DNA from: Sideroxydans sp.
GTDB lineage: Bacteria > Pseudomonadota > Gammaproteobacteria > Burkholderiales > Gallionellaceae
Length of the DNA stretch: 64,000 nucleotides
Direction: 5' to 3'
NCBI GenBank assembly: GCA_013791855.1
Contig: VMTA01000004.1
Span: forward strand, 124,001 to 188,000
In this document: positions 43,853 to 47,323 of the stretch, one piece after another
How positions within the stretch are numbered: the stretch's first letter is position 1
How the letters are laid out: every line of letters starts with the position of its first letter
Position numbers and translations under genes: made by a program
The notes under the pieces: generated by a model
Database searches by the model: none
Told to the model about the DNA's origin: nothing
Seen by the model: the letters and a program-made list of their open reading frames with translations, nothing else

Positions 43853-45340
43853 CTAGCGGTGCGACTGGGCGTCGAGCCCGTCCAGCACCATCTCCGCCGC
43901 GCGCAACACCGCGCGTGCCTTGTTCTGCGTCTCCATCCATTCGCTGTCCGCTACTGAGTCGGCGACGATGCCGGCACCCGCTTGCACGTACAGCGTCTTG
44001 TCTTTCACCACGGCGGTGCGCAGCGCGATGGCTACGTCCATGTCGCCGTTGAAACCGAGGTAGCCGACCGCACCTGCGTAGATGCCGCGCTTGGAGGGTT
44101 CCAGTTCGTCGATGATCTCCATCGCTCGTACCTTGGCCGCGCCGGAAACAGTGCCGGCTGGGAAAGTGGCTTTCAGCACGTCCATCGCATCCAGACCCTG
44201 TTTCAGTTTGGCTTCTACGTTGGACACGATATGCATCACATGCGAGTAACGTTCGATCACCATCTTGTCAGTGAGCTTCACGGTGCCGTGTTCGGCCACA
44301 CGGCCGATGTCGTTGCGGCCGAGGTCGATCAGCATCAGGTGCTCGGCCAGTTCTTTCGGATCGGCCAGCAACTCTTCGGCGAGTGCGGCATCCTGTTCCA
44401 TCGTCTTGCCGCGCGGGCGGGTACCGGCGATGGGGCGCACGGTGACGGTGTCGCCTTCCAGTCGCGCCAGAATCTCCGGCGAGGAGCCGACCACATGATG
44501 GTCGCCCATGTCGTAATAGAACATGTAGGGCGAGGGGTTGATGCTGCGCAGCGCGCGGTACAGCGACAACGGAGAAGCGGGGAAGGGCTGCGACATGCGC
44601 TGCGACAACACCACCTGCATGATGTCGCCGTCGAAGATGTATTGCTTGGACTTCTCCACCGCCGCTTTGAAGGCGGCCTCGCCGAATTCCGATTTCGCTT
44701 CGATATGTTTGGCGGGCGGTGCGAACGGGATGTCGGCCGGCAAGCGCATCATGCCGATCAGCTCGCGCAGACGTTCGCGTCCAAGCGGATAGGCATCGTC
44801 CTGCGCCGGATCGACATAGACGATGAAGGTAAGTTTGCCGGACAGGTTATCGATCACCGCCAGTTGCTCGGTCAGCATGAGCAGGATGTCGGGCGTACCC
44901 AGCGTGTCCGGCTTCTGTGTTTTGGCCAGTCTTGGTTCGATGTAGCGCACAGTGTCGTAGCCGAAGTAACCCGCCAGACCGCCGGTGAAGCGCGGCAGAC
45001 CGGACAAGGGGGCGACCTTGAAGCGCTTCTGGTAGTCGCTGATGAAATCCAGCGGATGTTCCACTTGCTGCGTGGTCGAGCCTGCCGCATTGCTCAGCGT
45101 GACTTCCTGTCCGCGCACCGAGATGCGTGTCTCGGCCGGCAGGCCGATGAAGGAATAGCGGCCGAAGCGTTCGCCGCCCTGCACCGATTCCAGCAGATAG
45201 GAAAACGGCTTGTTGGCCAGCTTGAGATACAGCGACAGCGGCGTGTCCAGATCGGCGAAGGTCTCGGCGACCAGCGGGATGCGGTTGTAGCCTTGCGCGG
45301 CTAGCGCGTTGAATTCTTCTAGTGTGATAGGTGACAACAT
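43853..45340 (-). CDS. trpE: Anthranilate synthase component I
   Basis: Makes anthranilate from chorismate, the first committed step to tryptophan. 495 residues; the feedback-inhibition site LLES is present in [19 protein letters not shown] near residue 50; the chorismate-binding C-terminal half has [40 protein letters not shown] and the end block [15 protein letters not shown]. Its Shine-Dalgarno (AGAGAGG, 45352-45346 on the minus strand) lies within the 3' arm of a leader stem. See the trpL entries for regulation. Confidence 0.97.
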
Positions 45341-45342
45341 AA

Positions 45343-45438
45343 AGACCTCTCTAAAGTTCGTTCGATGACCATGGGCGGACGCGAAGTCCGGTGATGCTGG
45401 ATCACCATCGCCAATAGGTCGTCTGCAAAGAGAGGTCT
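45343..45438 (-). promoter_or_regulatory. trpE leader RNA: three-way junction hiding the trpE ribosome site
   Basis: A closing stem of 10 perfect pairs joins AGACCTCTCT (45438-45429) with AGAGAGGTCT (45352-45343); the latter is the trpE Shine-Dalgarno. Inside lie GGTGAT/ATCACC (45406-45401 with 45395-45390) and CGGAC/GTCCG (45390-45386 with 45380-45376). The first arm of the closing stem is codons 4-7 of the leader peptide and the second hairpin begins at its stop codon. No T run follows, so control would be at translation start, not termination. Confidence 0.75.
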
Positions 45439-45449
45439 GTATGTGTCAT
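45402..45449 (-). CDS. trpL: trp operon leader peptide (Trp-Arg-Trp)
   Basis: A 15-residue reading frame, [15 protein letters not shown], too short for usual gene finding. Trp codons are at 13 and 15, directly before the TGA; Trp is rare in general, so two in three codons before the first trp gene is a strong sign of a tryptophan-sensing leader. The ATG follows the gph stop by one base (TGACATG), with no ribosome site of its own, so it is probably translated by ribosomes coming from gph. Codons 4-7 form one arm of the stem that covers the trpE ribosome site. Confidence 0.78.
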
Positions 45450-45450
45450 G

Positions 45451-46137
45451 TCAAAGTTTTTTGATGAGTGGCAATATGCCGGTGAGATCGGGGATGACTG
45501 CATCCACGTTCAATGTCTCGACCGGTTCGCCGTGATTGTAGCCGTAAGGCACGCAGATGATGGGGCATCCTGCGGCACGCGCGGCCTGCGCATCGCTCAG
45601 CGAATCGCCGACCAGCAGCAGATGCTCGATGGCACAACCGAAGAATTTGGCCGCGTGCAGCAAAGGCATCGGGTGCGGTTTCTTCTCGGGCAAGGTGTCT
45701 CCCGCGATCACGATCTCGAAATATGGCGCGAGGCCGGAGGCTTGCAGGATCGGGTCGGTGTAGCGCATCACTTTGTTGGTGATGCACCCCAAACGGTAGC
45801 CCGCTGCCTTCATCGCATCCAGCCCCTGCACCACATTGGCGAACGTCTTGCTCGTGCAGGCCAGTTCGGTGTAGTGCTTCTCGAAGATCGGCAAGGCTGT
45901 ATCGAACAGCGCTGCATCGGGCTCGGCATGCATGTCGCCGGTCAACGCACGCTTCACCAACCAGTGGATGCCGTTGCCGATGTAGCTCATCAGCAGGTCT
46001 TGCGACACGGGCGCGCGGCCCATGTCACGCAACATGCGATTGGCGGATTCAGCCAACTCCGGCGCGGTATGCAGCAGCGTACCGTCCAGATCGATGACGA
46101 TGGCCGACACGGCCAGCGGAAAGTCCTTGAACGCCAT
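45451..46137 (-). CDS. gph: Phosphoglycolate phosphatase
   Basis: HAD-family phosphatase that removes 2-phosphoglycolate, formed by RuBisCO oxygenation or DNA repair. 228 residues. HAD motif I is DLDGTLLHT (nucleophile Asp near residue 17), with cap domain, and later motifs CITNKVM, GDTLPEKKPHP and VGDSLSDAQAA. Its start shares one base with the rpe stop (TAATG) and its stop is one base before trpL. The rpe-gph-trpE order is common in betaproteobacteria. Confidence 0.94.
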   Translation of the reverse strand: MAFKDFPLAVSAIVIDLDGTLLHTAPELAESANRMLRDMGRAPVSQDLLMSYIGNGIHWLVKRALTGDMHAEPDAALFDTALPIFEKHYTELACTSKTFANVVQGLDAMKAAGYRLGCITNKVMRYTDPILQASGLAPYFEIVIAGDTLPEKKPHPMPLLHAAKFFGCAIEHLLLVGDSLSDAQAARAAGCPIICVPYGYNHGEPVETLNVDAVIPDLTGILPLIKKL

Positions 46138-46826
46138 TACTTGCCGACTTTGGCCAGCTCGGCGCGCAGCTCAGCGATGATGGTGTTGTAGCGGTTGGCG
46201 TCTTTGTCGTTCTTCTTGCCGAACACGGCGGAACCAGCTACGAAAGTATCCACGCCTGCTTCAGCCACTTCCTTGATGTTGGCCGGGCCGACGCCGCCGT
46301 CGATCTCCAGACGGCATTTGTAGCCGCCCGCATCGATCATGGCGCGTACCTTGCGTGCCTTATCCAGCACGTGCGGGATGAACTTCTGACCGCCGAAGCC
46401 GGGGTTGACCGACATCAGCAGCACCATGTCCAGCTTGGGCAGGGTGTATTCCAGGATGTCCAGCGGTGTGGAGGGGTTGAATACCAGGCCTGCCTTGCAG
46501 CCGAGTTCCTTGATCAGGCCGATGGTGCGGTCGATGTGCTCGGAAGCTTCCGGGTGGAAAGTGATGTAGGTCGCGCCGGCCTTGGCGAAGTCGGGAATGA
46601 TGCGGTCCACCGGCTTGACCATCAGGTGCACGTCGATGTCGGCGGTCACGCCGTGCTTGCGCAGCGCTTCGCAGACCAGCGGGCCGATGGTCAGGTTGGG
46701 TACATAGTGGTTGTCCATCACGTCGAAGTGCACGATGTCGGCGCCGGAGGCCAGTACGTTGTCCACTTCCTCGCCCAGCTTGGCGAAGTTTGCGGAAAGG
46801 ATGGAGGGGGCGATCTGATAATCCAT
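46137..46826 (-). CDS. rpe: Ribulose-phosphate 3-epimerase
   Basis: Interconverts ribulose-5-phosphate and xylulose-5-phosphate in the pentose phosphate and Calvin cycles. The 229-residue TIM barrel has [15 protein letters not shown] at the start, [17 protein letters not shown] with metal-binding His/Asp, [12 protein letters not shown], and [11 protein letters not shown]. Good ribosome site AAAGGAAC before the ATG. First gene of the rpe-gph-trpEGD-HD-GYP-relA run; a -10-like TAAAAT (minus, 46874-46869) followed by GCGCGTCC lies 43 bp upstream. Confidence 0.96.
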
Positions 46827-46868
46827 GAGAGTTCCTTTAATTGAGAGGGGTTTGAATTTTGGACGCGC

Positions 46869-46874
46869 ATTTTA
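46869..46874 (-). promoter_or_regulatory. Candidate -10 box for the rpe-gph-trp operon
   Basis: TAAAAT on the minus strand, followed by GCGCGTCC as at other promoters in this window. A matching -35 box is not clear. Confidence 0.45.
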
Positions 46875-46939
46875 CCTGAAATGCGTACTTCGCCGCTGTG
46901 CGGCTTGTCATGTCATGCAAAATACGGTGAAATGCAGCG

Positions 46940-47323
46940 ATGGAAGATCCTTCTCGATATCGTATTCATGTTGCCGTGCAGGTGCGCCATCTGGCGGAAC
47001 AATCCGATGAAGCCGATGAACGCTTCGTATTCTCCTACACCATCACCCTCACCAATCAGGGCTCGCAGGCGGTGCAGTTGTTGAGCCGCCACTGGATCAT
47101 CACGGATGCCAACAATCACGTGCAGGAAGTGAAAGGCAAGGGCGTGGTCGGTGAGCAGCCGGTGATCAAGCCGGGCGAGAAGTTCGAATATTCAAGCGGC
47201 ACCGTATTGGCCACCCAAGTCGGTACAATGTCCGGCAGCTACCGCATGCAAGTGCTGGACGGTGGCGAGTTCACGATCCCCGTGCCCCAGTTCGTATTGA
47301 GCGTGCCGCGCACGCTGCATTAG
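46940..47323 (+). CDS. apaG: ApaG family protein
   Basis: A 127-residue beta-sandwich protein of the ApaG family, historically linked to Co2+ resistance and Mg2+ efflux in Salmonella; the biochemical role is unsettled. Family marks: FSYTITLTNQGSQAVQLLSRHWIITDANN and VKGKGVVGEQPVIKPGEKFEYSSGTVL. The ribosome site is weak. It is divergent from rpe (113 bp gap) and followed after 10 bp by mltA, probably in one unit. Confidence 0.95.
   Translation: MEDPSRYRIHVAVQVRHLAEQSDEADERFVFSYTITLTNQGSQAVQLLSRHWIITDANNHVQEVKGKGVVGEQPVIKPGEKFEYSSGTVLATQVGTMSGSYRMQVLDGGEFTIPVPQFVLSVPRTLH

Follow-up and report, generated by a model that had tools for sequence, protein, structure and literature searches.

A putative tryptophan-codon leader peptide predicted to govern translation initiation of trpE

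A leader frame between gph and trpE

The window (the whole 64,000-nucleotide stretch of DNA that was analyzed) carries on its minus strand a row of genes that we read as rpe, gph, trpE, trpG and trpD, the names being taken from our reading of the proteins in the ORF list. The presumed controlled gene is trpE, encoding anthranilate synthase component I (43853–45340, minus strand), with trpG and trpD downstream. Upstream lies gph (45451–46137, minus strand), a phosphoglycolate phosphatase by reading of its protein, and a gap of 110 nt separates it from the trpE start at 45340. The gph stop codon, a TGA at 45453–45451 of the minus strand, is followed by a single C and then by the ATG of a leader ORF of 15 codons plus TGA (45402–45449, minus strand), which reads ATG ACA CAT ACA GAC CTC TCT TTG CAG ACG ACC TAT TGG CGA TGG TGA. 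Codons 13 and 15 are thus Trp codons, and TGA stands directly after codon 15. The first-pass annotation had reported a 15-codon frame one base past the gph stop with Trp at these two codons, and the letters of the window confirm it.

There is no Shine-Dalgarno (SD) sequence visible before the leader ATG of the window, and a simple consensus scan of 44900–47000 found no sigma70-like promoter; ribosomes translating gph would be placed to start the leader. A second frame, of 31 aa, overlaps the end of the leader and starts within it; relatives such as L008 do not keep this frame, and we rejected it for that reason. The sequence TGGCGATGGTGA is present in 10 copies in the genome, including the one at trpE.

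A predicted stem over the trpE ribosome site

The gap is predicted to fold as a closed three-way junction (-43.2 kcal/mol) in which a perfect 10-bp helix, P1, encloses two hairpins. The 5′ arm of P1, AGACCUCUCU (45429–45438, minus strand), consists of leader codons 4–7 and is assigned from the fold and from the duplex tests described below; the 3′ arm, AGAGAGGUCU (45343–45352, minus strand), holds the trpE SD. This fold reproduces the perfect 10-bp pairing of codons 4–7 with the SD, and the two enclosed hairpins, that had been claimed from the letters. Five more base pairs, ACAUA/UAUGU, extend the pairing onto the trpE AUG, with UAUGU of the start-codon region (45337–45341, minus strand) facing leader ACAUA (45444–45440). 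The interior of the junction (45364–45423, minus strand) is predicted to include a stem, P2 (about 45423–45410 with 45376–45364), and the inner hairpins GGUGAU/AUCACC (45406–45390) and GGAC/GUCC (45389–45377), all on the minus strand.

Such a structure is rare in shuffled sequence. The fold has a z score of -4.48, and 0/200 dinucleotide shuffles fold as well. Among 5000 dinucleotide shuffles of the 110-nt gap, an ORF of 8–35 codons in which Trp takes two of the final three positions arose once, perfect 10-bp pairing to the 20 nt that precede the trpE ATG also arose once, and the two never occurred together. The predicted openness of the trpE SD in the window is 0.14, compared with 0.39 when the upstream sequence is shuffled (15/300 shuffles are as low). 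In sequence and in modeling, the SD of the downstream gene appears to be sequestered by pairing within the region of the upstream ORF, as in translational attenuators. An alternative, the 4-bp anti-sequestor GGUC/GACC, which would free the SD when the ribosome masks P2, was examined by eye and set aside, only some sequences of the long-type clade described below having it.

Conservation of the leader within the family

For comparison, 112 loci of the family, which is probably the iron-oxidizing Gallionellaceae, were located by TrpE searches (18 + 94) and their upstream regions extracted; L019, which is without a trpE start, was excluded throughout. The core TGG-CGA-TGG, two Trp codons flanking the rare Arg codon CGA (codons 13–15 in the window, 45405–45413, minus strand, with CGA at 45408–45410), lies within 200 nt of trpE in 94/112 loci and in 91 of these is in frame with an ATG. 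Family leaders were chosen by the pattern TGGCGNTGG, in which any CGN is allowed, and the number of Trp codons per leader is not independent evidence because the leaders were chosen by TGGCGNTGG. The three exceptions among the 94 are L072, with ATA for ATG; L077, cut by a contig end; and L002, with an in-frame TAG at codon 12. In this last locus TrpE is 96% identical and the stem is kept, yet TAG precedes the Trp codons. The exact core is missing from 18 loci. Altered remnants of it persist in four (L011, L032, L089 and L117), and in the other 14 a WRW-type leader was not seen, with possible traces in L073 and L105.

Once one duplicate had been removed, 90 distinct family leaders remained. For 87 of these the distance from the stop of the upstream long frame to the leader ATG is -4 to +6 nt, the other 3 not being placed. 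The first-pass claim of a leader start at the gph stop is supported. An SD match of at least 4 nt precedes the leader ATG in only 5/89 family leaders, as against 89/89 for trpE. Leader placement and the missing SD fit a restart by ribosomes leaving gph. Leaders range from 11 to 19 codons, and the residues outside the Trp-Arg-Trp core differ between groups; the inner part of the junction is similar within the long-type clade and is unrelated sequence in other groups.

The position of the leader at the upstream stop, together with the retention of the stem in L002 despite a stop ahead of the Trp codons, would also suit a stem that damps the trpE start constantly or simply belongs to its folding, with a Trp/Arg peptide that merely couples from gph and senses no Trp. 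We see little chance of this, given that the Trp-Arg-Trp core is kept in most of the family while other leader residues vary by group, and that Trp/Arg leaders recur in the order and beyond.

Several loci have rearranged upstream regions. In L013, L017, L012, L033 and L091 an unrelated palindromic sequence is inserted in the spacer between leader and trpE; the WRW leader is retained, and the predicted leader-SD pairing is weaker, at -10.6 to -15.6 kcal/mol. In some genomes of genus g18 (loci L051, L056, L065, L082 and L084) the leader is absent, and repeats of the AGGATTCAGG and CCTGAATCCTG types before trpE could pair mutually. In two genomes, G010 (upstream region L122) and G023 (L121), the trpE match comes as two adjacent pieces of one open frame, residues 1–300 or 1–301 and 292–495, suggesting an insertion within TrpE.

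Pairing between leader arm and trpE start across loci

The letters of the stem vary by group (GACCTCTC/GAGAGGTC, AACCTCCT/AGGAGGTT, ATTCCTA/TAGGAGT and others). For each leader, the duplex predicted with its own trpE start region was set against those predicted with the start regions of other loci. In the family set (91 family and 4 order loci, with L021 and L022 left out), the own duplex averages -17.5 kcal/mol and the swapped duplex -12.0 kcal/mol, and own beats its mean swap in 92/95 loci. The own pairing beats 95% of unlike swaps in only 33/95, and the own arm beats 95% of shuffled arms in 73/95. The best helix overlaps the SD region in 84/94 loci, which, with the fold, supports the assignment of the 3′ arm in the window. 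The longest pairing seen, 20 bp and perfect, joins the leader start of L020 with its trpE start region.

In the order set the own mean is -18.07 kcal/mol against -12.93 kcal/mol for swaps, and 0/5000 permutations reach the own mean; own beats the mean swap in 55/73 loci, does not do so in 18/73, and falls in the top 5% of swaps in 25/73. Redundancy was controlled by 20 random non-redundant greedy picks of 14–19 family-set loci and 39–43 order loci each. Over these picks the mean double-swap fraction is 0.93 for the family and 0.78 for the order, with 0/2000 permutations every time, and single-linkage clustering, which collapses the family to 6 groups, points in the same direction (family 15/15, order 437/595). 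The predicted openness of the SD follows suit: over 90 family loci its mean is 0.27, compared with 0.38 under shuffled upstream sequence, and it is lower than shuffled in 62/90; among the order loci, shuffling the upstream sequence gives a more open SD in 45/73. The effect is modest but consistent.

The long-type clade was examined in an alignment of 17 sequences (A2), from which L036, L066, L081 and L094 were left out, their 3′ arm being misaligned in the 21-sequence alignment A1; automatic folding of A1 gave a different, weak consensus. In A2 the CAU/AUG pairing at the start codon is kept in 98% of cells, a clade conservation that accompanies the fold of the window, and no covariation beyond shuffles was found among these 17 sequences, in which the stem is conserved and nearly invariant. 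The clade neither supports nor opposes the pairing, because the stem hardly varies there. Comparison of related genomes for Trp codons and for paired changes in the stem had been suggested as the check on the first reading of this locus, and this check did not refute it: the core is widely kept, and stem and partner change together.

Spread in the order and beyond

By reading of the relatives, the order is named Betaproteobacteria (GTDB Burkholderiales). An automatic rule found a Trp/Arg leader in 73/97 order loci, the remaining 24 being without a motif leader under that rule; some leaders were probably mis-chosen by it (for example L138 and L201), which adds noise. Outside the family, the leader start lies at most 10 nt from an upstream long-frame stop in only 27/69 order leaders.

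A sample of the class comprised 56 genomes, 43 with a TrpE match, and yielded 30 loci; of the 29 besides the window, 27 have a trpE frame. CGATGG occurs roughly 60–100 nt upstream of trpE within a small frame in 12/27 of these other-order loci, and no such leader was seen in the remaining 15. These 12 were selected by CGATGG in a small frame, irrespective of pairing; their own duplexes average -20.6 kcal/mol and the swapped ones -13.6 kcal/mol, with 62/66 double swaps and 0/10000 permutations. Own beats its mean swap in 11/12, the exception being L313. The class loci not used are L307 and L330, in which no ORF was found, and L319, L322 and L329, in which CGATGG lies outside -60 to -100. L328, with CGATGG at -75, no in-frame start and a pairing worse than its swaps, was left out of the 12; with it added, the counts are 72/78 double swaps and 0/10000 permutations.

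The CGA codon before Trp

The Arg codon within the core is strongly biased, a feature that, like the breadth of the element's occurrence, the first-pass annotation had not noted. The variable base N of the core is A in 90/90 distinct family leaders, and once four duplicates had been removed, the Arg codon directly before Trp is CGA in 87/87 distinct family leaders and in 48/72 order cases. When Trp-Arg-Trp was sought in all 130 loci, whichever of the six Arg codons was used, CGA turned up 100 times and CGT once. By comparison, CGA accounts for 6/80 of the Arg codons that only follow Trp, for 5/121 of those within the first 30 trpE codons, and for 2/49 of the Arg codons in trpE, gph, rpe and trpG of the window.

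These counts bear on a sensor of another kind. In TnaC the nascent peptide itself arrests the ribosome, and a WRW or RWR peptide could similarly cause arrest when it senses free tryptophan or some other ligand, a reading to which the recurrence of the Trp-Arg motif across the order lends some appeal. The preference is for the CGA codon at a specific position, beyond a preference for Arg, which points to decoding at the level of the codon, and the residues ahead of the core differ between groups; we consider peptide sensing very unlikely. Ribosomes read CGA more slowly than CGU or CGC in a his-leader assay reported for Salmonella (PMC4046918). We infer that CGA-UGG would lengthen or secure the wait at Trp. 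It is also possible that the six bases act as an RNA sequence.

Terminators and transcriptional control

The first-pass annotation had seen no terminator-like T run before trpE, and the consensus scan of 44900–47000 agrees, no terminator-like site being found there. Between leader and trpE, such sites number 5/95 (1.5 expected) in the family set and 1/69 (0.8 expected) in the order, which is near background. A hairpin with a U run is present between leader and trpE in L076, L083, L092 and L123, and a weak one in L090. In the genera of the first four, the same leader may act on transcription, seemingly through a gained terminator.

Searches with Rfam 15 over the window gave only two weak, unrelated matches, and 39 distinct loci gave none at the gathering score. 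The Trp_leader family (RF00513) scored above its cut-off in 0/60 order genomes, the E. coli control being positive. Below threshold there were 7 Trp_leader matches in 6 order genomes, and in the four of these with a trpE place listed (G028, G048, G050 and G077) none is at that place.

The leader could nevertheless control RNA polymerase more generally, by way of a terminator that is hidden or non-canonical, or by leaving trpE mRNA untranslated and open to Rho. The five hairpins with U runs, above the 1.5 expected, speak for this reading, as does E. coli toiL, an upstream ORF (uORF) whose translation controls topAI translation and, via Rho, its transcription (PMC12121999). Given that coupling, Rho could add a second layer here. 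Set against the window without a terminator-like site, an order count at its expectation and the lack of Trp_leader matches over the cut-off in the order genomes, transcription attenuation as the main mode of control appears unlikely.

Ribosome position and release of the stem

A ribosome footprint reaches about 15 nt upstream of the P-site codon. By this measure, a ribosome with codon 13 of the window's leader in its A site would cover only the last 3 nt of the stem arm, and in the modeled window RNA one ribosome stalled at codon 13 leaves a 7-bp stem and the start-codon pairing in place. In constrained folding the SD openness of the free RNA is 0.22. A ribosome on the leader stop codon leaves it at 0.20, one stalled at codon 13 raises it to 0.42, and the addition of a queued ribosome brings it to 0.50; the start codon opens only with the queued ribosome (0.00 to 0.33). 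The first-pass annotation had held that the footprint of a ribosome waiting at codon 13 reaches the stem arm and frees the trpE start. With this footprint the ribosome barely reaches the arm, and in the model release by that ribosome alone is doubtful; opening, even then only partial, needs a queued second one.

Across 95 loci the modeled mean SD openness rises from 0.29 in the free RNA to 0.32 with a ribosome at the stop, 0.39 with one stalled and 0.45 with one stalled and one queued. In 13/95 the SD is predicted to be open (>0.6) without any ribosome, and in some loci, such as L099, the modeled stall closes the SD instead of opening it. The next Trp codon lies a median of 12 nt past the stem arm. 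Of 94 loci, 79 have a Trp codon at which a waiting ribosome would touch the arm, and in 59 its footprint would extend over half of the arm or more; in 15 the arm would be out of its reach. A stalled and a queued ribosome with the footprint given above would together cover the whole arm in 94/94. Release by a single ribosome, doubtful in the model of the window, seems more plausible for the short-leader forms; we therefore favor a queue-assisted release.

Proposed mechanism

We propose, with a probability of roughly 75%, that the leader is a ribosome-mediated tryptophan attenuator acting on trpE translation initiation. The proposal starts from what can be read in the sequences, namely the ORF, the stem, their joint conservation, the lack of a terminator-like site and the closeness to the gph stop. 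Ribosomes that terminate on gph would restart at the leader ATG. With ample Trp-tRNA the leader would be finished and the ribosome would leave, upon which the vacated codons 4–7 could pair with the trpE SD (and AUG), and trpE would be poorly translated. When Trp-tRNA is scarce, the ribosome would wait at TGG-CGA-TGG, and this ribosome and one queued behind it would occupy the 5′ arm so that the SD stays open. The CGA codon would serve as a built-in slow step. What we infer is that the leader is translated, that ribosomes stall and queue on it, that trpE responds and that CGA plays this role. A counterpoint to this mechanism is that many ribosomes arriving from gph should often open the stem even at ample Trp.

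More tentatively, and at somewhat less than even odds, we suggest that this is a widespread translational trp attenuator of Betaproteobacteria and several other gammaproteobacterial orders, in which the CGA-UGG pair is the sensor: a slow CGA before Trp would hold the ribosome and its queue over the SD-hiding arm even at a modest shortage of Trp-tRNA.

Comparison with known systems

Control of transcription by ribosomes has its textbook example in trp attenuation. In the leader described here, the same principle of sensing appears to be applied to translation initiation, for the most part with no terminator, in samples from one order and from several other orders of the class; the tested loci gave no match in Rfam 15. 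This suggests how trpE may be controlled in these groups and gives the CGA-UGG codon pair a testable role; the few genera in which a terminator seems to have joined the same leader provide a natural series. Among open-licence papers on trp leaders and translational attenuation, we found no title or abstract that describes this leader, an absence that is not proof.

In E. coli, trpL lies immediately upstream of trpE and encodes a short peptide whose Trp codons are close to its end. The likeness of our leader to the E. coli trp attenuator (trpL; RF00513) lies in this short Trp-codon peptide directly before trpE, to which the frame and its conservation point, its translation being predicted. The two differ in that our leader is predicted to pair with the trpE SD and, lying just behind gph, shows no SD before its own ATG; neither an intrinsic terminator (no terminator-like site or U run) nor a covariance-model match to RF00513 over the cut-off was found.

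In the B. subtilis rtpLP leader (anti-TRAP), Trp codons regulate translation initiation of the next gene, and the finishing ribosome covers the SD. Trp codons in a leader peptide would govern downstream initiation in both systems; here, an RNA stem would hide the SD. The cat and erm leaders are translational attenuators that respond to antibiotics. With these, and with toiL, our leader shares the idea that a stalled uORF ribosome alters downstream initiation, whereas the signal here would be a shortage of Trp-tRNA and not a drug, and the 5′ arm lies upstream of the stall codons.

Among the printed designs consulted, the nearest is the LEU element of actinobacterial leuA, a leader whose leucine codons and the leuA SD together form the base of a pseudoknot (PMC1262725). 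Both leaders contain codons for the amino acid of the pathway, and in both the SD of the biosynthetic gene has its pairing partner among the codons of the leader. As that account presents it, the Leu codon run itself pairs with the SD, in another phylum and for another amino acid, whereas here it is codons 4–7, upstream of Trp codons 13 and 15, that pair, and the Trp codons do not. We regard the trpE leader as a variant of the ribosome-mediated leader-peptide attenuator and not as a member of Trp_leader.
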